From a virus: a stretch of DNA of 63,746 nucleotides. Shown here piece by piece: positions 10,677 through 30,502 of this stretch. Numbering within the stretch: position 1 is the stretch's first letter; each line of letters begins with the position of its first letter. The position numbers and the translations under genes were made by a program. The notes under the pieces were generated by a model that did not search any database, was not told where the DNA came from, and saw only the letters and a program-made list of their open reading frames with translations. The DNA is taken from positions 1-63,746 of the IMG/VR virus record IMGVR_UViG_3300027985_000695, one strand, 5' to 3'.

Positions 10677-11687
10677 ATGACAGGCAACGAAGAAATGGAA
10701 GTCAACGAAGAACAGCAGACCGATGACGAGTTCGCAGCTGCCTTTGACGAAGAGCTCGGCGACGATCAGGAGAGTTCCGCGGCCTCCGATGAAACCGGAG
10801 ACACCGCTGGCGACGCTGACGATGCCGGATCGACCGATGAGGAAGACGGCGGGCAAGCTCAGGCAGGCGCTGATTCGACGGAAGAGACTCCACCCGACTA
10901 CAAGGCTCTGTACGAGCAGGAACAGGCCAAGGCCCGTGAATCCGAGCAGCGGTACAACACGCTGCAAGGAAAGTACAACGCCGAGGTCGAACGCGCCAGG
11001 CAGCAGCAGCAGTCGGGACAGACGCAGCAGCAGCAGCAACCCCAGGAGCCGCAGCGCCCGAGCGACGACGGGTACGACGAAGCGGAGAAGGCGGAACTCG
11101 CCGACTTCCGCAAGAAGAACCCCGAACTTGCGAAGGCCACGATTGACGGCCCGAAGAGCGAGACATTCAGAAAAATCCTGCTTAATCGCGGGGCCGAGGA
11201 TGTCGCGTACTACCATGACCTCATGCCTGCGCCTCAAGAGCAAGGCCCGGTGGAAGACACCGCCCTGCGCGAAGAGTTCGTCAAGCGCGAGATCAGCCGT
11301 CACGAATCCGAGATCGCATCAACGCACCCCGACTGGAAGGAGACGCTTTTCGAGGCCGAACCTCTCGCTCAGGGGCAGCGCACCGTCAAGAAGGAAATAT
11401 TCGACTGGATCAACAGGCTTCCGTTCATCATGGGCCGCGATGCGCTTTACGTGCTGAAAAAGGGCAACAGCAATCAGGTGTCGAACCTGCTGCAAGCCTA
11501 CAAGGATTTCAAAGCGCAGCGCGACGATCCCACGAAGGGCGGAGGCCAGGAACAACAGTCGGCAAGCACGGAAGAGGAAGATGCCGCCGCGCCCGTCAAG
11601 GGCAGATCGCCCGGCATCCCCACTCAGGGGATAGCCGCCGATGACTTCGACGGCGCCTTCGAGGCAGCTACCCGTCCTCGCCGATAA
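10677..11687 (+). CDS. Capsid scaffolding protein candidate
   Basis: A 336-residue protein. I chose ATG 10677 because it follows AAGGAGAG; the frame extends upstream to 10602 without a ribosome site. The first 75 residues are strongly acidic (Glu/Asp-rich), followed by a coiled-coil region at about residues 80-140 with Gln runs and then a helical C-terminal part. Composition and position 15 bases before the major capsid gene match scaffolding proteins of N4-gp56-type phages. It is not similar to a capsid protease. Confidence 0.75.
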   Translation: MTGNEEMEVNEEQQTDDEFAAAFDEELGDDQESSAASDETGDTAGDADDAGSTDEEDGGQAQAGADSTEETPPDYKALYEQEQAKARESEQRYNTLQGKYNAEVERARQQQQSGQTQQQQQPQEPQRPSDDGYDEAEKAELADFRKKNPELAKATIDGPKSETFRKILLNRGAEDVAYYHDLMPAPQEQGPVEDTALREEFVKREISRHESEIASTHPDWKETLFEAEPLAQGQRTVKKEIFDWINRLPFIMGRDALYVLKKGNSNQVSNLLQAYKDFKAQRDDPTKGGGQEQQSASTEEEDAAAPVKGRSPGIPTQGIAADDFDGAFEAATRPRR

Positions 11688-11702
11688 TAGGAAGAACTCA
11701 TC

Positions 11703-12704
11703 ATGGCCAACACGACCTTCGGAGACATCTCTCCCCGTACCGCCGCCTACGTCGTCAAGGACTTGCTGGAACGCGCCCTGCCCGACCTCATCATCGAGCA
11801 GTTCGGTCAGAACAAGCCGCTCCCGGCCCGCAGCACCAAGACCCTGACCTTCAGAAAGTTCAACCCCCTGGACACCACGCCGCAGGCGCTGGTCGAAGGC
11901 GTCACCCCCTCGGCCAAGAAGATGACCGTCACCGACGTGTCTCTTACCCTCGTCCAGTACGGCGACCGGATCACCGTCACCGACGTCATTCAGGACACCC
12001 ACGAAGACCCCGTTCTTCAGGAAGGCACCGAGATCATCTCCGAGCAGGCCGCTCAGATGATTGAGCGTGTCCGGTACGGCGTCATTCGCGCCGGCACCAA
12101 CGTCGCCTACGCGAACGGCACCACCCGTACCGCCGTCAACACCCCCATCACCCTGAATCTTCAGCGCAAGATCACACGCGCCCTGAAGAACCAGAATACC
12201 AAGCGCGTGACCCGCGCCATCGCGCCGACCCCGAAGTTCAACACCCGCCCCGTGGCACCTGCGTTCATCTGCATGTGCCACCCGAACTGCGAGGCCGACA
12301 TCCGTGGCCTGGCCGGGTTCACCCCCGTCGAGGAATACGGCAGCGGCATGACCCCCTACGCCTCCGAGTTGGGCAAGGTCGAGGACGTTCGCTACGTCAC
12401 CTCGACCATGTTCGTGCCCTTCGAGGACGGCGGCGGCGCTTATGCCGGGTCCGGCACCAGCATGCTGACCACCAGCGGCACCAGCGCCGACGTTTACCCG
12501 ATGATCTTCACCGGCGCCAACGCCTACGCCTGCGTGGCCCTGCGCGGCAAATTCGCCATCACCCCGATGGTCGTCAACGCCAAGCCGTCCGACTCCGACC
12601 CGCTTGCCCAACGCAACCATGTCGGCTGGAAGACCATGCAGGGCGCCATCATCCTGTACGACCTCTACATGTGCCGCGCTGAAGTCGCCGTCACCGCCCT
12701 GTAG
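11703..12704 (+). CDS. Major capsid protein, N4-gp56 family
   Basis: A 333-residue protein with the hallmark start of the N4-gp56 family: a TTFGDISPRTAAYVVKDLL segment, the GQNKPLPARSTKTLTFRKF segment and the ITVTDVIQDTHEDP helix region at about residues 95-110. It forms the icosahedral shell with an HK97-type fold in known family members. It sits directly after the acidic scaffold gene and is followed by small head genes. Codon use is strongly biased to C and G in third positions, as expected for the most highly expressed virion gene. Confidence 0.92.
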   Translation: MANTTFGDISPRTAAYVVKDLLERALPDLIIEQFGQNKPLPARSTKTLTFRKFNPLDTTPQALVEGVTPSAKKMTVTDVSLTLVQYGDRITVTDVIQDTHEDPVLQEGTEIISEQAAQMIERVRYGVIRAGTNVAYANGTTRTAVNTPITLNLQRKITRALKNQNTKRVTRAIAPTPKFNTRPVAPAFICMCHPNCEADIRGLAGFTPVEEYGSGMTPYASELGKVEDVRYVTSTMFVPFEDGGGAYAGSGTSMLTTSGTSADVYPMIFTGANAYACVALRGKFAITPMVVNAKPSDSDPLAQRNHVGWKTMQGAIILYDLYMCRAEVAVTAL

Positions 12705-12740
12705 GTCGAGCGACCGGCAAACCACAAGGAGGTATAGGAC

Positions 12741-12947
12741 ATGATCAGACTGGATAAGGCGGCTGACGCCTTCAACACCATCGCCGACAGCACCGTGCGC
12801 AACGCGCTGTTCAAGTACCATGAGGCCGTCAAGGATCACTTGAACAACCACGTTCATCATGCGAGCGGCAACGCTGGCTACACTTCCGTAGCCAAGAATG
12901 AAACCGCCGGAACCGACACCGGCGACGACTACCCCTTCCCCGCTTAA
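12741..12947 (+). CDS. Small head-module protein
   Basis: A 68-residue protein with AAGGAGG upstream of ATG 12741. The first 35 residues are a likely helix (LDKAADAFNTIADSTVRNAL) and the middle is His-rich (HLNNHVHHASG). It comes directly after the capsid gene, so a decoration, vertex or capsid-stability role is possible. No family recognised. Confidence 0.55.
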   Translation: MIRLDKAADAFNTIADSTVRNALFKYHEAVKDHLNNHVHHASGNAGYTSVAKNETAGTDTGDDYPFPA

Positions 12948-12951
12948 CCAC

Positions 12952-12980
12952 ATGGGGCCGCGTGACGAGCGCGGCCCCAT
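12952..12980 (+). other. Strong hairpin after the capsid genes
   Basis: An 11-bp perfect stem (ATGGGGCCGCG with CGCGGCCCCAT, 7-base loop). An A run, not a T run, follows on the + strand, so this is not a standard terminator. It may protect the 3' end of the capsid mRNA or mark an RNA-processing site that sets capsid protein levels. Confidence 0.6.
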
Positions 12981-13000
12981 AAAAAAAAGAGAGACGCAAG

Positions 13001-13309
13001 ATGGCAAAGACTCTTGAGGAAGCGTATAACGAAGCCGACGGCAAAGACGGCAAGATTGACAAGAAGCTGAAGAATCTCGGCTTTTGCGGGCGCCGCGCCG
13101 ACATCACAATCTTCAACGGCCCCGGAGAGAACGGCAAAGACGATGTGCAGTTGCAGATCGTCCCGCTCGCCATCAACGTGAAGCGCGAGCAGCGCGTGTC
13201 CGTCCCCGAGGAGTTCCTTGAAGTCCTCAACAATGCCCGCGAGATGGTGTATGACCCGAAGACCGGTATCGGCTCCGAAGTCATGCGCTTCCCGTATGTC
13301 AGGCATTAA
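13001..13309 (+). CDS. Small head-module protein
   Basis: A 102-residue protein following the hairpin, with GAGAGACGCAAG just upstream of ATG 13001. It is charged with a beta-like middle (DVQLQIVPLAINVKREQRVS). It lies between capsid and connector genes, where a head-completion or decoration protein is expected. No named family recognised. Confidence 0.55.
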   Translation: MAKTLEEAYNEADGKDGKIDKKLKNLGFCGRRADITIFNGPGENGKDDVQLQIVPLAINVKREQRVSVPEEFLEVLNNAREMVYDPKTGIGSEVMRFPYVRH

Positions 13310-16283: not shown

Positions 16284-16775
16284 ATGTCTCGTATCATCTT
16301 CTACGACTTCATCAACCATGCCCCGCTTGCGAAACTGCTCGGACACCTGAGCAACGTCACCTTCGGAGCGGCCGGTCTTGCCATCAAGGCCTCTTCAAGT
16401 GCCGATGCCAAGACGGCGAACGCCGTCGCCCAGAGCATCAATGGCAAGATCAACGCGCTGGCCGCGATTGCGACCATCGACCTGTCTGACCTGTGCTCCG
16501 ACGAGGACGCGCTGGCCGACGGCGAGGGCATCCTCATCTGCCTCTTCTCCGATGCCAGCGATACCGTCAGCGCCGTCATCAGCGACCCGACGACCTCGTA
16601 CTCGTCCATCGCCGTTCCGGCCTTCGACGAGACCGACAAGGCTCCCTTCGGAGTCATGAAGGTCGTCAACAACTCCGGGTCGGCGTTCACCCTCGGCACC
16701 ACCGCCCTGGACACCACGGACGTCACCGTCACCTACACGGACGTTTCGCACCTGATCCCCGGCGACACGTTCTAA
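16284..16775 (+). CDS. Beta-rich virion protein, unknown
   Basis: A 163-residue protein; I chose ATG 16284 because GGAGG lies five bases upstream. It is rich in Ala, Ser, Asp and Thr, with a C-terminal beta-like part (DTTDVTVTYTDVSHLIPGD). Style and size suggest a decoration or tail-tube component, but no family is recognised. A strong hairpin follows immediately. Confidence 0.55.
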   Translation: MSRIIFYDFINHAPLAKLLGHLSNVTFGAAGLAIKASSSADAKTANAVAQSINGKINALAAIATIDLSDLCSDEDALADGEGILICLFSDASDTVSAVISDPTTSYSSIAVPAFDETDKAPFGVMKVVNNSGSAFTLGTTALDTTDVTVTYTDVSHLIPGDTF

Positions 16776-16782
16776 AGCGGGA

Positions 16783-16805
16783 GGGCCGGGGAAACCCGGC
16801 CCTTT
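16783..16805 (+). terminator. GAAA-capped hairpin, partial terminator
   Basis: GGGCCGGG and CCCGGCCC form an 8-bp stem closed by a GAAA tetraloop and followed by TTTC. The short T run suggests partial termination or 3'-end protection inside the late transcript, between the beta-rich protein and the nozzle gene. Confidence 0.6.
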
Positions 16806-16822
16806 CAGCATGAGGCGACGGC

Positions 16823-18670
16823 ATGGCCCTGTACCTGAATGTAAGAGGATTCGGCGGCGAAGAGCCGCGCACATCGTCGCGCCTGATCGCGGACAACGCC
16901 GCGCAGCTTGCAGAGAATTCCAAGCTGCTTTCAGGCGAGATTCGTCCTTTCTACGACCCACGCACGGTGAACACGCCGTACAAGACCGACGCGCTTCAAA
17001 GCATATTTCTCTACAAAGACGCCTACTGGTGTCACTGGGAAGAAGACGTCTGCGTTCAGCGCGGCCCAGTTGCCGGCGACACGAAAGAGCGCACCTACAT
17101 CACCGGCCTCGACGTGCCCCGCGTCTTCAACTCCGATGGAGTCGCATCAGGTGGTTCTTCCGACTACCCGGCGCTCACGTACCCTCTCGGCGTCCCGGCG
17201 CCTGACAATTCAGGTTCAACATTCACCGCCACCGACACAGGGACAGGAGGATCTGGAGCAGACCGCGATGTCGTGTACTGCTACACCTACGTAACAGCGT
17301 GGGGAGAGGAAGGACCGATATCCGAAACGTCGAACGCCGTGACGTGCATGAACGGTGAGCAGGTTGACCTGACGAACATCACGCCATGTCCGTCAGGGCG
17401 CAACCTCGACAAAATTCGCATCTACCGCTCGCTCTCTGGTTACTCGTCCGACTACTGGGCGCGAGTGGCGGAAGTGGCGGGTACAACGACATCGTATTCC
17501 GACACGGTCCTCGACGACATGCTCGGCGCAGAGCTCACGTCTCTCACATGGCTTGCGCCTGACGAGGACTTGCACGGCATCTGCGCGCACCCAGGAGGAT
17601 TCCTCGTCGGCTTCTTCGACAACACGATCTCGTGCTCGGTGCCGTACTTCCCCCATGCTTGGCCTGTGGCGAACCAGTACACGATCCCATACGACATCAT
17701 GGGCATCGGCGTGTACGAGGACAAGATCGTCGTCGCAACGACTGCGTTCCCATACGTCTTTTCAGGCTCTTCACCGAGCGCTCTTCGCGGCGACAGGATA
17801 CCGTCGCGGCAACCGTGCCTCTCAAGGCGCGGCGTCGTATCTGGCGAGCTTGGCGTCCTGTGGCCTTCTCCTGACGGCATATACGGCGTTGGGCCACAGG
17901 GGACCGGCCTCATTACGAGCGACATCCTGACCAAGAACGAGTGGAACAAGTTCAACCCGCAGACCATTCACGCCGCCGTCGCCGACAACAAGTACATCGC
18001 CTTCTACAAGACGAGCGTCGATGGCGGCGTAATCAGCGGGCGCGGCTTCTCGGTTGACCTTGCGGAGCCTACGGCGAAGTTCATCGAATTCGACTTTTAC
18101 GCGCATGCCCTGTACGCCGATCCGTACACCGACAACCTCTACATGGCCATGCGCAACGAGGACGAGGACGGGAACTACATTCAGAAGTGGGAGGGCGGCA
18201 GCACCCGCAAGCAGTTCACATGGCGCAGCAAAACTTTCGGATGCGTCCCGACCAACCCCGCAGCGGCGCAGGTCATTGCCGACTTTACTCCGAGCGAGGC
18301 TGAATTTACGCAGGCTGAACTCGACGACTTTGAGGCTGCGCGTGACATCATCATTGCTGACAACGAGGACTTGATCACGTATGACCAGACTCGTGGTTAC
18401 ATGAGCGGCCAAATGTTTGGAGAGTACGTTTTTTCCGGTTCTGCAATCAAAGAGGCCGGCGACATTTTTTCAGACACGACGTACTTGAACTTCAAGCTGA
18501 TCGCAGACGGAATCGTTGTTTTCCAAAAGGCGATCAGCGACTGCGAGCCTTTCAGGATTCCGTCGAACTTCCTTGCAAGGGAACTCGCGTTTGAATTGGA
18601 AGGCAACGCTTTCATCAAGAACGTCAGCGTGGCGTCAAGCGTTACGACAATATATCAAGCGGGGTACTAG
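16823..18670 (+). CDS. Tail nozzle/tubular protein B-like
   Basis: A 615-residue beta-propeller-like protein. Features shared with nozzle proteins of short-tailed phages are the N-terminal FGGEEPRTSSRLIADNAAQLAENS region, the YTYVTAWGEEGPIS strand pair near residue 155, several short blade repeats in the middle, and a beta-rich end. It would close the tail tube distal to the adaptors. Context fits: it precedes the internal virion protein genes. Confidence 0.7.
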   Translation: MALYLNVRGFGGEEPRTSSRLIADNAAQLAENSKLLSGEIRPFYDPRTVNTPYKTDALQSIFLYKDAYWCHWEEDVCVQRGPVAGDTKERTYITGLDVPRVFNSDGVASGGSSDYPALTYPLGVPAPDNSGSTFTATDTGTGGSGADRDVVYCYTYVTAWGEEGPISETSNAVTCMNGEQVDLTNITPCPSGRNLDKIRIYRSLSGYSSDYWARVAEVAGTTTSYSDTVLDDMLGAELTSLTWLAPDEDLHGICAHPGGFLVGFFDNTISCSVPYFPHAWPVANQYTIPYDIMGIGVYEDKIVVATTAFPYVFSGSSPSALRGDRIPSRQPCLSRRGVVSGELGVLWPSPDGIYGVGPQGTGLITSDILTKNEWNKFNPQTIHAAVADNKYIAFYKTSVDGGVISGRGFSVDLAEPTAKFIEFDFYAHALYADPYTDNLYMAMRNEDEDGNYIQKWEGGSTRKQFTWRSKTFGCVPTNPAAAQVIADFTPSEAEFTQAELDDFEAARDIIIADNEDLITYDQTRGYMSGQMFGEYVFSGSAIKEAGDIFSDTTYLNFKLIADGIVVFQKAISDCEPFRIPSNFLARELAFELEGNAFIKNVSVASSVTTIYQAGY

Positions 18671-19982: not shown

Positions 19983-22310
19983 ATGCCCTTCAATCTCGAC
20001 AATTTCTTAGGCGGCGTAGGCACCGGGTATCTCAATCAGGAGAAGCTATACGACCAGCAGGCGCGCACCGACATCGCCGACAGGTCGATGACGCTTGAGG
20101 AAGAGGAAGCGCTTAGAAAAGAGCAGGAACTTGAGCGTCAGCTTGCGGAGCAAGCCCGCATCGCTTCCATTCTTTCTCCCGGCGTATATGGCCGGCAGGG
20201 CGCCACAGGGGCTGTTGGGGCGCAGGGACAGCCGTTGCGCGAGCACGACCTTCCCGTCAACTCGAACCTCACTGTGGGTGGCGTTGACCCGACGTCAGAA
20301 CTCGGCAAAGCCATCGCCTCGTACACGCAGAACGACCCCGGCCTCGGCGACTACCTGAGCGCTGTCGCTCAGGCAGAGAGCGGCGGCAACCTTAATGCGC
20401 GGTCTGACACGTCGAGCGCAAGCGGGCCGTTCCAGTTCATCAACGGAACAAAAGAAGGGCTGTTCGGAGACTACGGCGAGGAGATGAAGCGTCTCGGTCT
20501 TCCTTTCGACGTGACGAGTCCGCAGACCGCGGCGTACCTCGCTCGCAAGTACACGCTCGACAACGACGCGCAGTTCGCGAAGCTTAACGGCAGGGCTCCG
20601 ACAAACGGCGAGCGGTACATGAACGCCTTCCTCGGCGTCAACGGCTACAACCGCATGATGAAAGATGCGGAGCGGCTCGGGTGGGATGCGCCTGCGCATC
20701 TCATGGCCAGCGCCGAAGCCGTGGCCGCGAACAGCAGCGTCTTCTACGACAGCAAGGGAAACCCCCGCACCGCAAAGCAGGTGCGCGACCTAATGACCAA
20801 CAAGATCAGCCCGCAGGAAGCCGCGCGCGGCGTCGGGACCGGCAAGGAGTACCTGTACGAACCGCAGCGAGGCTACGGCGTCAGCGGCGTTCCGCAGATG
20901 AACATGGAACAGATCAACGCCATCATGGCCGACCCGAATATCGGGACAGAAACCAAGATGAAGTTCATGCAGGCGCTCAACACCAACGCCAGCACTGTGG
21001 AATCAGGTCGCAGCAATCTGGAAAGCGAGAACTACCGCTCGGCGAACATGGCGCAGGAGGATCAGCAGCATCGTGAGCGCATGGCCTTCAACTACGCGCA
21101 ACTGAACGAGCAAATCAGAAAGAACGACCTCGATGCGTCGTCTCCTGAAGAGATTCTCTCCAAGGCGATGATCCAGGGCGACAAGGTCGTGTACATGTCG
21201 AAAGACGGCAAGACGCACAACCTCGAAATTACGCCCGATGAATTCATCGCCACCCGCGATGCAGTCCTGCGCGGAAGCGGCAAAGGCGGGAAGAGCGGGT
21301 CCGGGTCAGGCTCCGGCGGCACAGGCGTTGCGGCATGGCAGTACGATCAGTTGAGCAAGGCGTTCTCTCCGTATGTTGCAAGGACCAGCAACATCAACGA
21401 GGACGACCTCGACAACACCGAACTCGGCAAGTCCGCCGCTCAGATGGCCCAGAACCAGCTTTCGGCTGTGGTGTCCGAAGTCACCAACGTCTTCAGGGAG
21501 AACGGCATGGAGCCGCAGCTTGACGAGCGCACGTTAAACGCGCTCGGCGATCAGGCCGGCAAGCGATATTCCGAACTGTACCCTGAAGTGAAAAAGAACA
21601 TCATCGCAAAGACGAAAGATGCAGGCATCGAAGTGCGGCCTGAAGAGGTCGAATTCCGCACGATGCAGGCGACGATGGGCATAGTCAAGAACGACATGCT
21701 GAAAAGCGGTATGGCTGCTGAGATTCTTTCAGGCGGGAAAGTCAAGATGCGCCCGAAGACAACGCCGCAGGATACCGCTGACAAGGCGTCACCTGCGTCC
21801 GGCGCTCAAGCTGGACCGTATACCGCCAGGCTCGCAGACCAGAAGAAGCGCGTTGAAGGCGATGCTTCCGGCGCTATGGCGCAGGTAGCTTCGGCCGGCG
21901 GCGTCGGAGCCACGCGCGGTCCAAACGCTCCGATTGCGCCCGCCGCTCCTTCACCTCAGAAGAAGGTCGTCCAGGGCGAGAACGGCGACGTTGTTGGCGG
22001 CATATACGGGAACTACGGCGGCGACAACGCCATCAAGCGAGGCGTTCGCTTCTACAGCGGCTACGACGGCGCGAAGTACATCACGGACTCCATCGGTGCA
22101 GGAATCAAGAAGGTCATGGACACGTTGAGTATGCCAGAGGCTACACAGATGTTCCTTATGAAAAAGTACCCGCAGCTTGAGCAGATTGTAACTGGCCTTC
22201 CCGACGAACAGAAGGTATACCTCTTGAAAGCGTTCCGTGACAGCAGCCCTGAGCAGATCGACGCGATGCTGCAAGAAATCATCAGAATTAACACGGACAG
22301 GGGGCGTTGA
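19983..22310 (+). CDS. Virion lytic transglycosylase (SLT-like) internal protein
   Basis: A 775-residue protein. Residues about 120-235 are a soluble-lytic-transglycosylase-type domain: the catalytic Glu lies in VAQAESGGNLNARS, followed by SGPFQFI and the alpha-helical MKDAERLGW region, an order typical of phage internal virion transglycosylases. The rest is helical and Gln/Ala-rich. It would cut peptidoglycan during DNA entry. The last four bases overlap the start of the giant gene, as is common for ejection-complex genes. Confidence 0.8.
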   Translation: MPFNLDNFLGGVGTGYLNQEKLYDQQARTDIADRSMTLEEEEALRKEQELERQLAEQARIASILSPGVYGRQGATGAVGAQGQPLREHDLPVNSNLTVGGVDPTSELGKAIASYTQNDPGLGDYLSAVAQAESGGNLNARSDTSSASGPFQFINGTKEGLFGDYGEEMKRLGLPFDVTSPQTAAYLARKYTLDNDAQFAKLNGRAPTNGERYMNAFLGVNGYNRMMKDAERLGWDAPAHLMASAEAVAANSSVFYDSKGNPRTAKQVRDLMTNKISPQEAARGVGTGKEYLYEPQRGYGVSGVPQMNMEQINAIMADPNIGTETKMKFMQALNTNASTVESGRSNLESENYRSANMAQEDQQHRERMAFNYAQLNEQIRKNDLDASSPEEILSKAMIQGDKVVYMSKDGKTHNLEITPDEFIATRDAVLRGSGKGGKSGSGSGSGGTGVAAWQYDQLSKAFSPYVARTSNINEDDLDNTELGKSAAQMAQNQLSAVVSEVTNVFRENGMEPQLDERTLNALGDQAGKRYSELYPEVKKNIIAKTKDAGIEVRPEEVEFRTMQATMGIVKNDMLKSGMAAEILSGGKVKMRPKTTPQDTADKASPASGAQAGPYTARLADQKKRVEGDASGAMAQVASAGGVGATRGPNAPIAPAAPSPQKKVVQGENGDVVGGIYGNYGGDNAIKRGVRFYSGYDGAKYITDSIGAGIKKVMDTLSMPEATQMFLMKKYPQLEQIVTGLPDEQKVYLLKAFRDSSPEQIDAMLQEIIRINTDRGR

Positions 22311-25300
22311 TGCCTTACGAACCGTATCAGGATGAAGATCCGAACATCCTCGACCAAGAGAGCGCGCAAGCCGCTCAGGCTGTTGACTCCAAGCTTGAGC
22401 GGCTTTCCGATGTCGGCAACGGCGACGATGAGATAGAATACGCGCTGAAGATGCTCAAGGGCAGCGCCCCGCCGCCAGAGACTTCAGGCGACTCCTATTT
22501 CGATGCGCTCGGCGTCTTCGGCCGCACTCTTAAAGACCTTCCCACGCACATCAAGGCGTCAGTCGCGCAGGGCTTTTACGACCCGGAGGACATGACGCTT
22601 GACCGCTCGTCCTGGCATGAAAAGGCCATGGACGAGAGCAATGCAGCGATGGAAGAGGCCCGTCGCTACTACGATCCTGTCCTCGGCAAGAACATCGTTC
22701 CCGGCATTACTGCGGGGGACATACTTGACACCGGCCCGTCTGTCGGATTCTCAACCGCGAGCATGGGCGCCTACGGCGTCGGAGCGCTTGCCGGCGGCGC
22801 CGTCGGCATGCCGACCGTTGGCGGCGGCGCAGCGTCTCTGTTCGCCACCAAGGAGATGGCCACCGGCCAGTTCAACGACATGCTCGGTCGTGCGCTCGCC
22901 GAATCTGCGAAAGCCGAAGGCAGGAACTACACGCAGGCCGACTTGCAGCAGGACGTCGCATACTTCCAGAGCGAGGCCGACAAGTACGGATGGTACGAAT
23001 CCGCCCTTGAAACCATCGGCAACATCGTCATGGGCAAGACGTTCGGCGCGGGGAAGGAAGCGTTCTCAGGTCTTCTCAACAAGGTTTTCGGGGAGAAGGT
23101 CGGCGGCTACCTCGGCAAGAACATCGTCACGCGAACCCTGTCGAAGCTTGGGATCAACACTGCGGAGGAACTCCCCTCCGAGACTGCGACGCAGATAGGA
23201 CAGGGAGGCGTCGAGGCTGACGTTGCCAACCAACTGAGAGGCATCGGACTTGAAATGCCGGGCTGGCGCACCGAAGCGCCGGGCGTGACGCAGGCTCTCG
23301 GCGAGGTCGCCGCCCCTGTGGCCGCTCAAACGCTCTTCACCGGCGGCCTGGCGGCAGGTACGCGAGGCGTCTACGACCTTGCAAAGAAGGGCATGGAAGT
23401 CTCCCGCCGCGCCGACGATGAACTCGCAACGCAAGCCGCGAACGAGGAAGCTGCGCGCACCATTCCTCCGAAGACCTCGCCCGTCGAGATGCCGCAACCC
23501 GAAGCCGCCCCTGTGGAACCACAGGGGGAGGGCTTCACGCCTGTTCGCGGCGCCCTTGATACAATGCAGATCGTGAGCGACCCTGAAGAGAACGCGCGGT
23601 ACATAGCTGCGATGAAGACGAATTTGAAGATCGCCGACGAGGAAGATATCAGCGACAGGGCCGAGAGGCTCTTTGCCGAGGGGAAGTCTCGCGCCGAGGT
23701 AATGACCGCGCTGAAGCAGGAACTTCAGGCCATCGAAGAGAAGCACGGCATCAAGCCTGCTTCAATCATTAACGCCGTCGTCAGGGACCGCAAGATTCCT
23801 GGCTTTGAGAGCGAGGGCAGGAAACAGTGGCTTGCCGACATGGCCGGGTACTACAAGTCTCAGGATGCCGCGAAGCCGAAGGTTGAGTTTGATGAGGATG
23901 GAGTCGAGGTTGCGCAGAAAGACCTCAACCATCCTTATGGCCACCTGCGCGGCATTCCTCGTCCGATGTCGAATTACCTCGGCAACAAGCGCAGCATGAT
24001 CCAGGCAGGCGCCTTCATCGGAGCCATTGCCGACAAGATCAAGCAGAGCAACATCGTTGACGTCTTCGCCGGTTCAAGCCTTCTGAGCCAGCTTGTCGGC
24101 AAGCAGAACCCGAACGCCAAGCGCGTCGTCAACGACCTCAACGCCGACGTGTTCAACTTCCATGATGTTGCCCGCAACAAGCCCGACGAGTTGATGTCTG
24201 AGGTGTCGAACAGCCTCAACAAGATTCGCTCAGTCATGTCGCGCTTCAACGAAGGAGGCAAGCTTGCGCATTCTGAGATTGCCGATCTTTGGAAGGAAAT
24301 CAAAACGCGCAGCGAGTTCGGCGATCCGGTTCAGAAAGCCGCTGCGATGGCTCTTGTGTCCGGCCAACTCGGTCAATTCGGCAAGGCAAAAGACACCGTT
24401 GACGCCGAGTCCGGCGTCCAGGGAAGTCAGCGCATCATCAAGGGCGAAGGCGCATCGAAGCCGTATGCCTGGACTGCATCTACAAAGAGCCTTGACAACT
24501 ACGAGGAGACGCTCAGGCAGTTCGTTGCCGATGCAAAGAACACTGAAGTAACGAACAAGGACGCCACCGAAGTATTGAACAATGCTACGGCTGACGGACT
24601 GTACCTTGTCGATCCTCCTTATGTTGCAGGTGAGGGGAAGGAAGGAGTCAACGACTATAAGGAAGGGAAGGAATTGACTTCCCTGGAAGGCGCCTTATCC
24701 TTTATAAATGGCCCCCTGAAAGCCGCCCATGAAAAGGGCGCGGGCTTGGTTTACACAAACAATTTTACCCCGGAACTTGCGACTGCATTGCGCGACCTCG
24801 GCTTTGCAGTCAGGAAGGTAAAGAATCTCAAGAGCCAGAACACCGGAAGCGAGGCAGGGAGCAGAGATGAAATCGTCGCCTACAACTCAGCAGCCGCAGG
24901 CAGGGATGTTGATGGACAGAATGCAGATGCTCGGCGAGGGGACAGTGCCACCGCAGGTGTTCGACAGCCTGACGCCGGAGGATCAGAGAACGTTCCTGAC
25001 GGAACCGGACCCGAAGATGTGGAGTCCAAGCCTGCAAGCAGCGATGCAGGAGTACCTGACGCTGGAACGCGACCCGGAGATGGAGGACGAGGAGCCGCAG
25101 CCGCAGGCATCGGAGAGCAGCATACCCTCCCCGGCGTAGAGACTGCTGAGAAGCAGGAAGAGTCTCCCGAGTCAAAGCCATCTCTTGCGGAGGCTTTGGA
25201 AGCGGCCAGCGACAAGCCCGCCAGAAGCCAGGAAGCGAAAAATCCGACCGAAGGTGCGCCGGAAGGGGAAAAACCCGCGACAGCGCCCCCTGTAGCCCCT

Positions 25301-28300
25301 GAGAGGGAAGCGGCCAAAAACGCCGCCGAACAGGGCGAAAAAACCACCATTTCCCCCGCCGAACTGGCCGACGCCATTGAGTCCGGGCTTGGCGACGCAT
25401 CGTTTGTGCCGTTCAGGGCCAACGAGCGCAGGCTCGCCGACGCCATCAGGAATGGCAAGACCGAATTCAACGTCAGCAAGAATCTCAGCCGCGTCATAGC
25501 TGACAGGCTCAATGCCGCAGTCGGCAAGGAAGAGAACGTATTCGGCGGCAAGGTGACGAAGATTGAGGGCGGGGCTGGTAAGCGCAAGTACGCAGTCTCC
25601 CGCAATCACGGCAGCATCGTCTTCAATGAAGCCACAGGCGCATTCACCCATGAAGCGACTGCGAAGGAAGAAGCACCCGACATTCTTTATTCCACCAAGG
25701 GGATGCGGCTGCGGCGAGATGACCGTCGTGAGACTCGCCAGACCGTTCGTGACATTGTAGGAAATAGTGCCTCTCGCACAATGGTCAATGAAGTTCTTCA
25801 AAACTCCATCGATGCGCTGCGTGAACGGTTCGGCGTTGACAGGTCGTCGTCACCTAAGAAGGGTGACATCAAAATCAAGGTAGTCAAGTTCTTTGGTGGC
25901 AATTATCACTTTGACGACGCCAAGATGAATGATGATGTCGAAAGATATGATTCGTCTATCATTCGCTTTGAGATTGAGGACAACGGCACCGGTATGACTG
26001 CCGATGACGTTCGCGAGAAGTTCCTCAAAATTTCTGGAGAGGGCAAGGATGCAACCTTGCTGTCAGGTGGCTACGGCAGGGCGAAGCTTGCGTTCCTGTT
26101 TATCCCGCATCACTGGCGTCTTGAGACCACGAAGAACGGCGTGACGACTTATGTCTCAGGCAACCGTGAACAGATGTACGACGGCCTTGAGCTTGATCAC
26201 TACTCCAAGAAGGAAGGGAAGGAACGCGGCACCAAGCTGACGTTGTACTGCTACGGCAACGGAAAATACGCCGAGAACGATCCCGTTGACCCTAACGCAG
26301 ACCTTCATGTTCCCGGCTACAACATCGACGCGATGGTGAAGTCGTATGTCAATTCGCTGGCGCTAAACGTGCCCGTGGAGTACCATGAGTCGAACTACTA
26401 CAACAACGATGAAGCTGCGGAGAACAATAACCTTGATGCTCCGGTAAAGTACCATGAAAAGCCTTCCATGCTGCAAGGCTCTGCCCTTGACGACAGAAAG
26501 CTTTTCATGGACCCGAAGCGCGACATTATGATTAACGGCTCTCGCGTAAATATTTTCTACGTCGAGAGGCCGGAACACGAAGTCAAGCACGCAAAGAAGT
26601 ACAACTACGCGCCGAAGTTCGCTTTCTCGTTCTACAACAAAGGAATCAAGCTGCATGAACTCAGCTTTGACATGCAGGCGCCTGACCACCCTCCGTTCGA
26701 CATACATGTCAACGTTGCGCGCACCCCCGATACCGAGGATGCAAAATATCCCTTCCGTGACAACAGGCGCAGGTTGCAGGGAGACTTCAGCGAGAAGCTG
26801 ACTGATATCATTCGGCGCGACGTGCAGTCATTCAATGAACGCATCATAAAAATGCACCGCGATCGTCTCAAGGACATGTACGATTCGTCTCCTGAGTTTG
26901 AAGGCGTGAAGGTTCTCATCCCGTATGAGAAAAAAGACGTCGAGAGCATCAAGGATGACATCAACAGGCATCGCTTCCTGTTTGAAGATATCGCGAAGCT
27001 GTTCAAGGCGTTTGAGACAACCATCAAGGACGCCGTTGGAGAAAAAGTCGTCGATGCGCTCAAGAAAGTTGGCGGGACTCAAGACAGCGAGTTCGACAAC
27101 GACTTTGAGTTCGACATTTCGTTGGATGAGAAGAGCCACGGATTCAGACTCGGCAAGGCAGTCGCTGGTCGTCCTGTTTATGCGTTGAACCCGTTCGCCA
27201 TCACAAAGCAGTTGATGGAAGGCAACGGAATCTACAAGGCGCTCATAGACGTAGAGGATGCAATCGAGCGTGACGCCGTTATGAAGAGCCTGATGGCGAA
27301 CAACCTCGTCAACACCTTCATCCATGAATACGCTCACAACTTCGTGCAGTCTCACTACGAGTCATTCTCAAGCGTAGAGGACTTGCTGCATGCCCAGATA
27401 GGGTATGGAACCATAGCCGAACTGGCCGATCAGGCTTACCAGCTGTTCGACACGCATCAGGAGGCCATTGATGAAATCACGTCCAAAAAGCGAACAAGAC
27501 AAGAGACAGACCTTAAACTCATGCGCAACAACTCTCTTGTTCAGTCCAAGGAACTCGCTGGACGAGAAGATTCTGGACTATCACGCGAAGGACAAGGAGA
27601 AGGCGCGGCAGAAGATTCACGAGAACGGCGGGATGGAGTCGATGAAGGACGCGGTGATCGCGGAAGCGATGAACCGCAAGGCCCGCCTGAGTTCAAGCGC
27701 GACGTAAAGAATCAGCGCGATGCGATCAATAAAAAGACCGCCGGCATCTTCAAGACGAAGGCGATTCCTCGCGTCAAAGACTTCCTCTCCACCGTCCTGA
27801 ACCCGCAGACTGTCGAGGAGCGGCGCTTTGTGAAGGCAGGCGACCAGATGGCCACGATCTACACCGACAGGTCGTTCGGCCCCTTGCGCCGCGCCATCGC
27901 CCTGCCTTCCGCTGTGGCCCGAAAGTTCCCCGACCTCTTCAAGCCGCTGATGGACATTCAGGCGTTCCGCGAAGATACGCACCAGGAATACATCACGGAT
28001 GCGTTCAAAAACCTTGAGCAGATGATGAACCTGAAAGGCCAGGACGCCGACAGGCTCGTGAACGTCATCCACGACCTCGATGGAAATTTTGACGCATACA
28101 AGGAGTTCGGCGTCAAGTGGTTCAAAGAGGCCGGCGACGGAACGATGGAGGCCAACGACGAGTTCTACGAGAAGCTTCCAGACTTCCTGCGTGAGAGGTA
28201 TCCGAAGATGTCGGACGCTTCCATCAACTCGTTCGTGGCCATCCAGCAGGAACTTACCAAGACCTTCATTACCGTCCACAACAACGCGCATCAGGTCGGC

Positions 28301-30502
28301 GGCGAGGCGACGCATGCCTCCCTGAAAGACTACCGCAACGCGATGGGGAAGCTGCCTTTCTACTTCCCGCACAAGCGATACGGCTCGCACTACCTGAAGG
28401 CGACGAATGACAAGGGCGAAACGATCTATCGTGAGCACTTCGACAAGCGCAGCCTGGAAGTTCTCGGTAAGGGCATCGACCAGTTCGTGAAGGACCGCAT
28501 CAAGGCGATCCCGAGCGAGCTCTTGAAGCAGCCCCAGTTCGCGGACACCGACCTCTCAGGAGCGCACTGGGAAGTCCGAAAGGTAAAGAAGCTGCCTGAA
28601 GCCGTGTTCGACACGCCGATACCTGAGCGCGCCATTCAGCAGGTCATCACGCATGGCCTTGACAAGTTCGACGATGAAACGAAAGAGCGACATCGCGAGA
28701 TGCTCATGCAGGCTTTCTCCGACGTGTTCAAACAGCGCGGAGCCGGATCGTCGTTCATCAAGAGACAGAACATCCCCGGATACGAGCGCACGGACGTTCG
28801 CCGCGTGGTCTACGACCATGTTTCCGGCATGTACGGCTACATCACCAAGGCCGACGCCGCCAGGCGCATGACTGCCCACATGTGGAACATTCACGGCGCC
28901 GAAGACCCGGAGCTCTACGAGTACAGCGAGCGGTACGTCAAGGACATGCTTCAGAACGCCGACGTGCATGACAAGCTTGTCTCATGGTGGAAGTCCCTCG
29001 GGTTCGTCGTCTACCTTGGCGCCCGCGTTTCCACCGCCGCGGTGAACCTGACGCAGAACATCATCACAGGCATCCCGGCCCTCGGCATGTACGTCAAATA
29101 CTCGGAGAAGAGCTATTTCGACGCGCTGAAGGACATCACGACGCTTGTCAGGTACTCGCTCACCGGCAAGGCCGAAGGATACCGCAAGGAGTCCGGGCTT
29201 ACCCGCGACGAGTGGACGATGATCCAGAAGCTTTACGCTCAGGGCGACTTGCAGGATCAGTATTTCCGCAGCTTCCAGGCTGAGATGCAGGGCAAGGTGT
29301 CGAGGGCGTGGCACAAGGCCGTCACCTTCATGGGCATACCGATGACCGTGACCGAACGCTTCAACCGCGCATCGTTGGCGCTGGCCGCGTACCGCTCGGC
29401 CAAGAAGGGACACATCACCGACTCGGCCTGGACTACGAAGGTCGGGACCGGGGCATCGTTCAACGAGGATCAGGCCATTGAGTTCTGCAAGATGATAGTG
29501 AACAAAGCGCACTTCATCTACCGCAAGGGCAATGTCCCGCAAGCGATGCGCGGCACGACCGGCGGCAAGTATCTCTCGACCGCATACCAGTTCAGGCGCT
29601 TCACCCACAACATGCTCTCCCTGTGGACTGAGATGTTGCAGAGCGGGCCACGGGGGAGGATTGCGCTGATGAAGTCTCTGGCGGGCCTTATGAGCGTCGG
29701 CGGCCTCGCGTCCATGCCTCTCTATGCGACGTTTATGAATGCCGCGTTCGCCGCAACCGGCGACGACTGGGAGGAGAAACTCAGGAAGATGATGCCGAAG
29801 GATGCCGACGCGATGCGCGACATGCTCATCTACGGGCTTCCGTCGCTTGCCGGCGTGAACCTCTCAGGCTCGATGGCCATCGACCTTCCGTATGTGAGCG
29901 ACACGATGCCGAAGGGCGCTGGCGAAACGTCTGCGCTGGAAATCCTCGGCATCCCGTATGCGTTCCTCGTCGAGCAGCCGCAGAAATTCAACCGCAGCAT
30001 GGAGGCAGGCGAGTATTACCGCGCCTTCACCGAAGACTTCCCGTTCATGCCGATGGCCGCGAGGCAGGTCTTCTCGGCGATTAGGCTCGGGACTGAAGGC
30101 AGTTACACGCGCAGCGGTCGAGAGGTCAGGGCGCCGGGCGAACGCGGCCCCATGAAGCTTGGATTCATGGCCGCGCTCGGCAAGTCACTCGGATTCCAGC
30201 CGACGAGCATGTCCAACGCCTTCAAGGCCAGCGTCAGCGTGCAGAAGTCGAAGGAATTCCTTGATGGCTTCAAGCGCAACCTCGCCGACGAGTATACGAA
30301 TGCGCAGCGGCGCGGAGACAAGGAGGCGATGCTCGACATTCGCCGCCAGGTCAGGGAGTGGAACAAAGAGGCGCGCAGTGAGAAGAAGCCGTATTACGTC
30401 ATCGACCTTTCGGATTCGCTGAGGGCAAGACGCAGGCCGGTGGGAGGCGCGGGCAAGAAATTCCGCAGTCGCGAGAAAGAAGCGCAGGACGCCTACATGT
30501 AA
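22307..30502 (+). CDS. Giant polyvalent virion protein: D12-type methylase, GHKL ATPase and HExxH domains
   Basis: A 2731-residue protein that starts inside the end of the transglycosylase gene. Residues about 140-360 are small-residue rich and may insert in membranes. Residues about 550-865 match a D12-class DNA adenine methyltransferase: NYLGNKRS, DVFAGSSL (SAM binding), VVNDLN and the catalytic DPPY near 767. Residues about 1125-1310 carry a GHKL/HSP90-like ATPase: EVLQNSIDALR (N box), DNGTGM (G1) and GGYGRAKLA (G2). HEYAH at 1673-1677 is a zinc-peptidase-type HExxH. The C-terminal 900 residues resemble the large C-terminal domains of phage polyvalent proteins. The protein is probably injected with the DNA to counter host defences. 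Linkers 865-1020 and 1720-1800 are low complexity. Confidence 0.85.
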   Translation: MMPYEPYQDEDPNILDQESAQAAQAVDSKLERLSDVGNGDDEIEYALKMLKGSAPPPETSGDSYFDALGVFGRTLKDLPTHIKASVAQGFYDPEDMTLDRSSWHEKAMDESNAAMEEARRYYDPVLGKNIVPGITAGDILDTGPSVGFSTASMGAYGVGALAGGAVGMPTVGGGAASLFATKEMATGQFNDMLGRALAESAKAEGRNYTQADLQQDVAYFQSEADKYGWYESALETIGNIVMGKTFGAGKEAFSGLLNKVFGEKVGGYLGKNIVTRTLSKLGINTAEELPSETATQIGQGGVEADVANQLRGIGLEMPGWRTEAPGVTQALGEVAAPVAAQTLFTGGLAAGTRGVYDLAKKGMEVSRRADDELATQAANEEAARTIPPKTSPVEMPQPEAAPVEPQGEGFTPVRGALDTMQIVSDPEENARYIAAMKTNLKIADEEDISDRAERLFAEGKSRAEVMTALKQELQAIEEKHGIKPASIINAVVRDRKIPGFESEGRKQWLADMAGYYKSQDAAKPKVEFDEDGVEVAQKDLNHPYGHLRGIPRPMSNYLGNKRSMIQAGAFIGAIADKIKQSNIVDVFAGSSLLSQLVGKQNPNAKRVVNDLNADVFNFHDVARNKPDELMSEVSNSLNKIRSVMSRFNEGGKLAHSEIADLWKEIKTRSEFGDPVQKAAAMALVSGQLGQFGKAKDTVDAESGVQGSQRIIKGEGASKPYAWTASTKSLDNYEETLRQFVADAKNTEVTNKDATEVLNNATADGLYLVDPPYVAGEGKEGVNDYKEGKELTSLEGALSFINGPLKAAHEKGAGLVYTNNFTPELATALRDLGFAVRKVKNLKSQNTGSEAGSRDEIVAYNSAAAGRDVDGQNADARRGDSATAGVRQPDAGGSENVPDGTGPEDVESKPASSDAGVPDAGTRPGDGGRGAAAAGIGEQHTLPGVETAEKQEESPESKPSLAEALEAASDKPARSQEAKNPTEGAPEGEKPATAPPVAPEREAAKNAAEQGEKTTISPAELADAIESGLGDASFVPFRANERRLADAIRNGKTEFNVSKNLSRVIADRLNAAVGKEENVFGGKVTKIEGGAGKRKYAVSRNHGSIVFNEATGAFTHEATAKEEAPDILYSTKGMRLRRDDRRETRQTVRDIVGNSASRTMVNEVLQNSIDALRERFGVDRSSSPKKGDIKIKVVKFFGGNYHFDDAKMNDDVERYDSSIIRFEIEDNGTGMTADDVREKFLKISGEGKDATLLSGGYGRAKLAFLFIPHHWRLETTKNGVTTYVSGNREQMYDGLELDHYSKKEGKERGTKLTLYCYGNGKYAENDPVDPNADLHVPGYNIDAMVKSYVNSLALNVPVEYHESNYYNNDEAAENNNLDAPVKYHEKPSMLQGSALDDRKLFMDPKRDIMINGSRVNIFYVERPEHEVKHAKKYNYAPKFAFSFYNKGIKLHELSFDMQAPDHPPFDIHVNVARTPDTEDAKYPFRDNRRRLQGDFSEKLTDIIRRDVQSFNERIIKMHRDRLKDMYDSSPEFEGVKVLIPYEKKDVESIKDDINRHRFLFEDIAKLFKAFETTIKDAVGEKVVDALKKVGGTQDSEFDNDFEFDISLDEKSHGFRLGKAVAGRPVYALNPFAITKQLMEGNGIYKALIDVEDAIERDAVMKSLMANNLVNTFIHEYAHNFVQSHYESFSSVEDLLHAQIGYGTIAELADQAYQLFDTHQEAIDEITSKKRTRQETDLKLMRNNSLVQSKELAGREDSGLSREGQGEGAAEDSRERRDGVDEGRGDRGSDEPQGPPEFKRDVKNQRDAINKKTAGIFKTKAIPRVKDFLSTVLNPQTVEERRFVKAGDQMATIYTDRSFGPLRRAIALPSAVARKFPDLFKPLMDIQAFREDTHQEYITDAFKNLEQMMNLKGQDADRLVNVIHDLDGNFDAYKEFGVKWFKEAGDGTMEANDEFYEKLPDFLRERYPKMSDASINSFVAIQQELTKTFITVHNNAHQVGGEATHASLKDYRNAMGKLPFYFPHKRYGSHYLKATNDKGETIYREHFDKRSLEVLGKGIDQFVKDRIKAIPSELLKQPQFADTDLSGAHWEVRKVKKLPEAVFDTPIPERAIQQVITHGLDKFDDETKERHREMLMQAFSDVFKQRGAGSSFIKRQNIPGYERTDVRRVVYDHVSGMYGYITKADAARRMTAHMWNIHGAEDPELYEYSERYVKDMLQNADVHDKLVSWWKSLGFVVYLGARVSTAAVNLTQNIITGIPALGMYVKYSEKSYFDALKDITTLVRYSLTGKAEGYRKESGLTRDEWTMIQKLYAQGDLQDQYFRSFQAEMQGKVSRAWHKAVTFMGIPMTVTERFNRASLALAAYRSAKKGHITDSAWTTKVGTGASFNEDQAIEFCKMIVNKAHFIYRKGNVPQAMRGTTGGKYLSTAYQFRRFTHNMLSLWTEMLQSGPRGRIALMKSLAGLMSVGGLASMPLYATFMNAAFAATGDDWEEKLRKMMPKDADAMRDMLIYGLPSLAGVNLSGSMAIDLPYVSDTMPKGAGETSALEILGIPYAFLVEQPQKFNRSMEAGEYYRAFTEDFPFMPMAARQVFSAIRLGTEGSYTRSGREVRAPGERGPMKLGFMAALGKSLGFQPTSMSNAFKASVSVQKSKEFLDGFKRNLADEYTNAQRRGDKEAMLDIRRQVREWNKEARSEKKPYYVIDLSDSLRARRRPVGGAGKKFRSREKEAQDAYM
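24867..25139 (+). CDS. Nested gene in +1 frame inside the giant gene (90 residues)
   Basis: This frame starts at an ATG with GGGAG upstream and lies wholly inside the giant ORF, where that ORF reads as an Asp/Gly/Ala linker just after the methylase-like domain. The +1 frame here has G or C in most third positions, which is the bias of the genome's real genes, while the giant frame has mostly A or T. The product looks like a real helical acidic protein (MLMDRMQMLGEGTVPPQVF; TPEDQRTFLTEPDPKMW; LQAAMQEYLTLERDPEMEDE). Either it is a nested gene, or the giant gene was extended through an old downstream gene. Confidence 0.55.
   Translation: MKSSPTTQQPQAGMLMDRMQMLGEGTVPPQVFDSLTPEDQRTFLTEPDPKMWSPSLQAAMQEYLTLERDPEMEDEEPQPQASESSIPSPA
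27471..27707 (+). CDS. Nested gene in +1 frame inside the giant gene (78 residues)
   Basis: ATG 27471 has AGGAGG six bases upstream, a textbook ribosome site placed inside another gene. From about 27545 to 27695 the +1 frame carries the genome's G/C third-position bias (LDEKILDYHAKDKEKARQK, then MESMKDAVIAEAMNRKARL), whereas the giant frame reads as Gly/Glu/Arg-rich filler. The product is a charged helical protein of unknown function. It lies just after the HExxH region and before the C-terminal domain of the giant protein. A compensated double frameshift in the giant gene is the main alternative. Confidence 0.55.
   Translation: MKSRPKSEQDKRQTLNSCATTLLFSPRNSLDEKILDYHAKDKEKARQKIHENGGMESMKDAVIAEAMNRKARLSSSAT

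Follow-up and report, generated by a model that had tools for sequence, protein, structure and literature searches.

An open reading frame (ORF) of 90 codons, here termed ORF A, lies out of frame within a much longer phage gene and is likely to be a small gene translated in its own right. The DNA analyzed, referred to throughout as the window, is a whole phage record of IMG/VR (IMGVR_UViG_3300027985_000695; 63,746 bases), in which a giant ORF at positions 22307-30502 encodes a polyvalent protein of the DarB-like/PLxRFG type. ORF A occupies positions 24867-25139, in the +1 frame relative to the giant, within linker-coding DNA of the giant gene. On balance, a wider proposal is also favored, namely that DarB-like giants act as a chassis for hidden small +1 genes of several unrelated families, which sit in inter-domain linkers, are kept under selection in both frames over wide divergence and are missed by annotation. 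Under this proposal, much of the apparent linker would be a by-product of the nested genes, and the limitation to the +1 frame would reflect the frame in which the host read-through stays open and hydrophilic.

Codon signature of the nested frame

ORF A is a complete start-to-stop reading frame inside a longer, stop-free host ORF, and its boundaries, its frame and the ribosome site ahead of its ATG lie exactly where an earlier note, made from the sequence alone, had placed them (Table 1). The G+C contents of codon positions 1, 2 and 3 in the ORF A frame are 0.615, 0.451 and 0.802 and resemble those of the surrounding genes, whereas the pattern is inverted in the giant frame across the same bases (0.802, 0.615 and 0.451), bearing out the contrast in third positions on which the earlier note had relied. 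The giant frame has values of 0.622, 0.429 and 0.715 before ORF A and 0.571, 0.387 and 0.735 after it; at ORF A, the real-gene codon signature is borne by the nested frame and not by the host frame. The residues encoded by the giant frame over ORF A comprise 19% Gly, 18% Ala and 12% Asp, compared with 8, 10 and 7% in the rest of the giant, in agreement with the description of this part as Asp/Gly/Ala filler.

Frame-specific codon statistics, which had been proposed as a check, were computed with a codon model trained on 8,759 codons from other genes. The resulting island score is 22.4 for ORF A, and a second, equally strong site that the earlier note had overlooked, ORF B (27471-27707), scores 23.5; the maximum in 400 synonymous reshuffles of the giant is 4.6. 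A composition artefact, in which an unconstrained G+C-rich linker mimics coding sequence in the +1 frame, is very improbable: +1 open runs of 100-200 codons are indeed common in the giant and its reshuffles, but the observed scores far exceed the reshuffle maximum and ordinary genes almost never show such islands. Raw log-likelihoods give the nested frame a modest lead over the giant frame (-353.1 vs -360.4 for ORF A; -311.4 vs -315.5 for ORF B), under a model trained on greedy gene picks that include antisense ORFs. The probability that the giant frame would stay open, estimated by synonymous simulation, is 0.05 at ORF A and 0.08 at ORF B, values that are weak alone and conditional on discovery inside an open ORF. 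The length of the open frame was initially considered as evidence for a nested gene, and was dropped after the synonymous reshuffles showed long +1 runs to be common.

Recurrence across giant ORFs

Eighty loci were fetched through their internal virion protein, and the giants therein were scanned for out-of-frame islands. Under a strict criterion (score of at least 20, ORF ends over 80 codons away), internal islands numbered 33 in the 57 giant ORFs scanned (109,890 codons in total, with the window giant included), every one of them in the +1 frame. The same scan of 597 ordinary genes (241,669 codons) gave two islands, both within a single 292-aa gene of locus L008. A looser scan of the giants (score above 6) recovered 49 islands, 47 in +1 and two in +2, and the internal virion gene (32,346 codons) yielded three islands of score above 6, each starting no more than six codons into the called ORF. 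These counts come from restricted scans, a broader exploratory scan having picked up numerous false islands where gene calls were antisense or mis-started; some of the scanned loci carry only part of the giant, and the codon model for some giants was trained on the giant itself.

The islands group into eight families of at least two members, together with several singletons. In one locus (L050, 15624-16100) a tandem pair of nested +1 ORFs is seen, the second beginning right after the stop of the first and the locus ending within the second, and three loci (L031, L033 and L057) carry three nested +1 islands per giant ORF. The giant of L070 contains a nested HNH endonuclease in +1 (about 16328-17026; phrog_3377, 3.4e-54), and a nested +1 ORF of L051 (10771-11223) is similar to it. 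These two cases, with the precedent of the ShiLan domain discussed below, favor the possibility that the nested ORFs are selfish passengers, mobile genes that enter linker DNA by homing or recombination, presumably the route taken by the nested HNH endonucleases, and that bring the phage no benefit. A match of one nested family, MNLNNW, to the transposon-encoded protein family TnpV of Pfam points in the same direction, albeit below the cut-off (E 4.3e-4). This explanation is nevertheless rather unlikely, given that ORF A and ORF B match no endonuclease or mobile-element family and that the MNLNNW arrangement is constant over wide divergence, unlike that of a disjunct homing element.

Selection on the MNLNNW family

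A ten-row alignment of the MNLNNW family was used to find loci through homology of the nested protein alone, yielding 59 loci from IMG/VR and 22 from bacterial genomes. A locus was called nested where the giant frame has no stop and extends open on each side for 150 codons or more, or as far as the available DNA reaches. Of these 81 loci, 74 (65 distinct cores) are nested in the +1 frame, one, in Sinorhizobium phage PBC5, is in frame with the upstream ORF, and six show other arrangements. The last include homologues that look free-standing (L171, L173, L175 and L188), one near the start of a long ORF (L192) and one that, in a by-eye reading of the sequence, runs on into an apparent membrane segment (L185). 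The free-standing homologue of L171 (3001-3300) lies on a Corticibacter populi genome contig and has a good Shine-Dalgarno (SD) sequence.

SD-like 4-mers precede 71 of the 74 nested starts, compared with 582 of 4,171 background +1 ATG/GTG codons (14%) in the same giants. Differences at nested codon positions 1, 2 and 3 number 275, 217 and 546 (26 non-overlapping pairs; 1,839 codons), and among 459 pairs with 60-97% nested identity, the nested frame gives a higher identity than the giant frame in 457. The same direction is seen in the group means of all ten homologous groups of nested ORFs, with one individual pair of the small LLERL group (L088/L054) running opposite. Because nested identity is the higher and the differences are concentrated at nested third positions, the nested protein is constrained at the sequence level, in MNLNNW and in other nested groups. 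The giant frame is probably kept open by selection as well, since synonymous simulation of the nested proteins of nine MNLNNW phages predicts 1.9-7.3 giant-frame stops in each and none is seen in any of the nine; the summed log10 probability of nine open giant frames comes to -16 on the assumption of independent phages, an assumption that does not hold. A structure model of the nested family comprises four helices and a loose tail (mean predicted local distance difference test score, pLDDT, 76.8), and a fold search with it gave no PDB match with E ≤ 0.001.

These results bear on the two options set out in the earlier note, a translated nested gene or a giant ORF that once ended here and later read through an overlapping neighbor. 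A nested +1 gene in the linker is supported by codon bias, by the ribosome site and by conserved recurrence in relatives. The conservation check suggested in the earlier note, applied in equivalent form to the ten groups and to MNLNNW, had a favorable outcome. 'Overprinted' is probably the wrong word for such a gene, since in relatives the small gene is the constrained partner and one family has free-standing homologues; the passive reading of the giant frame comes nearer to the read-through option. A rival explanation is a fossil junction, in which a once-separate gene beside the methylase gene was engulfed when the giant arose by fusion or stop loss, and now persists untranslated with signals that have yet to decay. 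It gains some credence from the fact that present translation of ORF A and ORF B is deduced from sequence signals, that the two are without relatives, and that the giant of the nearest relative differs in its middle, so that the junctions may be young. Against it stand the long-term purifying selection on the nested frame across genera in the relatives, the SD-like sequences noted above, and the retention by both ORF A and ORF B of an ATG, an SD sequence and an intact frame; it is accordingly judged unlikely.

Standing of ORF A and ORF B

Several observations weigh against ORF A being a translated gene of a recurrent kind. Openness of the +1 frame is ordinary in this DNA, the longest +1 run of reshuffled giants averaging 216 codons, and the ORF A region is still open in 105 of 400 synonymous reshuffles. 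Only 21 of the 57 giant ORFs hold a strong internal island, and the island counts take in near-identical phages, hence do not represent independent events. Relatives of ORF A and ORF B were not found by exact-peptide scans of IMG/VR, by tblastn against phages, or in Pfam, NCBIfam, PHROGs and PDB, and both fall outside the MNLNNW family (about 0 bits against a 43-sequence profile). The giant of the nearest relative (IMG/VR record G001) lacks an island, and the structure model of ORF A is of low confidence (pLDDT 61).

ORF A has no match in Pfam, PHROGs or NCBIfam, and so none to HNH endonucleases; ORF B has weak matches only, none of them HNH, the best of which (phrog_31895, E 0.0069; TIGR04062, E 0.018) are too weak to assign it. 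A search of plasmids with the methylase-plus-ORF A stretch gave nothing usable. The idea, formed by eye, that the two are divergent members of a superfamily with the nested family failed by hhalign and by hidden Markov model comparison. G001 is 39% identical to the giant over residues 1853-2730 only, its middle section differs, and this sole near relative is not alignable around ORF A for a comparison of presence and absence of the insertion. A search for the window's clade through the C-terminus of the giant returned G001 again and three distant loci, all without strong islands. Because ORF A and ORF B have no detectable relatives, their reading as genes draws on anatomy and analogy. The orphan status of ORF A fits de novo overprinting; the abnormal composition of the host frame, rather than of the nested frame, does not. 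The model of ORF A shows four helices and a loose tail, its product is probably small and helical, and the predicted resemblance to the model of the nested family is suggestive only.

Proposed translation and origin

If ORF A is a translated gene, a single transcript would be read in two ways. Ribosomes on the giant frame would traverse ORF A and produce a soluble, disordered Gly/Ala/Asp-rich linker after the methylase domain, and other ribosomes would initiate at the internal SD sequence and ATG to make a 90-aa protein; ORF B would likewise be translated. As a guess, the small product of ORF A could be helical and act as an accessory to the giant or in late infection, with more of it made than of the giant. 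The arrangement probably arose when a pre-existing small gene was placed within the giant ORF, through insertion or through fusion of flanking genes, the frame of entry being one that lets the giant stay stop-free. Capture of existing genes is argued from the free-standing MNLNNW homologues and the nested HNH cases: the MNLNNW small gene probably came in by capture and did not originate by overprinting, and ORF A and ORF B may have had the same origin. In simulation, more stops are expected in the third frame than in the giant frame for the majority of nested genes, most members of the L031/L033/L057/L102 group being exceptions. The giant-frame reading of nested stretches is hydrophilic. The restriction to +1 may therefore arise because, in this frame, a G+C-rich gene can be read through without stops and with a hydrophilic result.

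Relation to known systems

The closest precedents are the ShiLan domain and the Pacc40 insertion, out-of-frame HNH endonucleases in actinophage DNA methylase genes (PMC11855218; Arsenault et al. 2025). Both systems have a complete other-frame gene in a phage methylase ORF, a stop-free host frame with a poorly structured, filler-like reading, and similar HNH genes outside the methylase; a self-splicing element was not found. In contrast, the cargo here (ORF A, ORF B and most families of the relatives) is non-endonuclease, lies in the +1 frame and is preceded by an SD sequence, the host is a polyvalent giant, and conservation of one family extends to 74 loci. The nested HNH-like ORFs of L070 and L051 provide a non-actinophage parallel to the ShiLan insertion. 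Polyvalent proteins themselves have been described (PMC5512222; Iyer et al. 2017), and the window giant shares with them its large multi-domain architecture in a phage, a methylase domain and a PLxRFG/DarB-like C-terminus; nested genes form no part of that description, in which a term search gave no hit for overlap, overprint or frameshift. A literature search whose coverage left out subscription journals and some preprints gave no paper describing out-of-frame genes within giants of the polyvalent or DarB-like type.

An Rz/Rz1-type pair is annotated in phage BcepIL02. Rz1 within Rz is an embedded, out-of-frame phage lysis gene with its own start; the two proteins cooperate in lysis and both frames are functional. 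The likeness to ORF A is in an out-of-frame phage gene embedded in another with its own start, although translation is here predicted from sequence, and the difference is that the outer frame in the overlap is low-complexity filler.

Out-of-frame HNH arrangements in phage methylases are therefore known, and what differs here is the conserved small-protein cargo, the SD sequences, the polyvalent giant host and the breadth. The nested genes point to a class of conserved phage genes, overlooked by annotation, that recurs in dozens of related phages and prophages, and they take the hidden-HNH precedent beyond selfish endonucleases, to small proteins that are conserved. They suggest that some of the disordered linker sequence in giant phage proteins comes from reading through other genes and is not spacer, and they offer a natural, many-phage system for studying how selection keeps two frames of one DNA.

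Public records and annotation

Two families were searched in public phage records. A Burkholderia nested family is present in eight records (77-99% identity) and the MNLNNW family in 21, from phages of Erwinia, Klebsiella, Pseudomonas, Agrobacterium, Vibrio, Ochrobactrum, Sinorhizobium and Microcystis. In all 29, every match is covered by one listed product, named as DarB-like, methylase, helicase, transglycosylase, PLxRFG, hypothetical or unknown, and none of the 10 records examined at the match sites has a separate nested coding sequence annotated. In phages PEp14 and BcepIL02 the Eco57I/N6 methylase match starts about 180-190 residues past the nested gene; in the window, ORF A shortly follows the methylase domain. 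In PBC5 (L110), where the nested stretch shares the reading frame of the giant's upstream part, the giant is split into orf33 and orf23, which represents either a true frame fusion or an old sequencing error. In Pseudomonas phage Itty13 (L104; MW460249) the deposited coding sequences are antisense over the stretch shown, and an uninterrupted giant frame of at least 2735 codons on the + strand is unannotated.

The giant gene and other features of the window

The giant ORF is likelier to start at ATG 22310 than at TTG 22307. Its residues 557-785 match a DNA methyltransferase profile (phrog_56, 1.2e-14), residues 1159-1287 the GHKL ATPase family PF13589 (4.2e-07) and the C-terminus phrog_11358 (3.4e-32). 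Residues 2088-2712 match the PLxRFG family NF032893 of NCBIfam (6.1e-55) with 186.9 bits, above the curated cut-off of 100, and thus belong to it. A gene for an internal virion protein (phrog_511) is located 3.6 kb upstream. The names of these matches point to a candidate antirestriction role for the giant in the injected virion.

Table 1. Positions of the giant ORF, the two nested ORFs and their putative ribosome sites in the window
Feature	Position	Strand	Details
Giant polyvalent (DarB-like/PLxRFG) ORF	22310..30502	+	2730 aa from ATG 22310, 2731 aa from TTG 22307; from ORF frame and profile matches
SD-like AGGGAG of ORF A	24856..24861	+	5 nt upstream of ATG; read from sequence
ORF A	24867..25139	+	90 aa; +1 frame relative to giant; ATG 24867, TAG ending at 25139; linker after methylase domain
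SD AGGAGG (perfect) of ORF B	27459..27464	+	6 nt upstream of ATG; read from sequence
ORF B	27471..27707	+	78 aa; +1 frame; linker preceding C-terminal conserved part of giant

Elsewhere in the window, an antisense open frame of 562 codons (11319-13007, - strand) lies opposite the major head protein gene (11703-12704) and is probably a by-product of codon bias.
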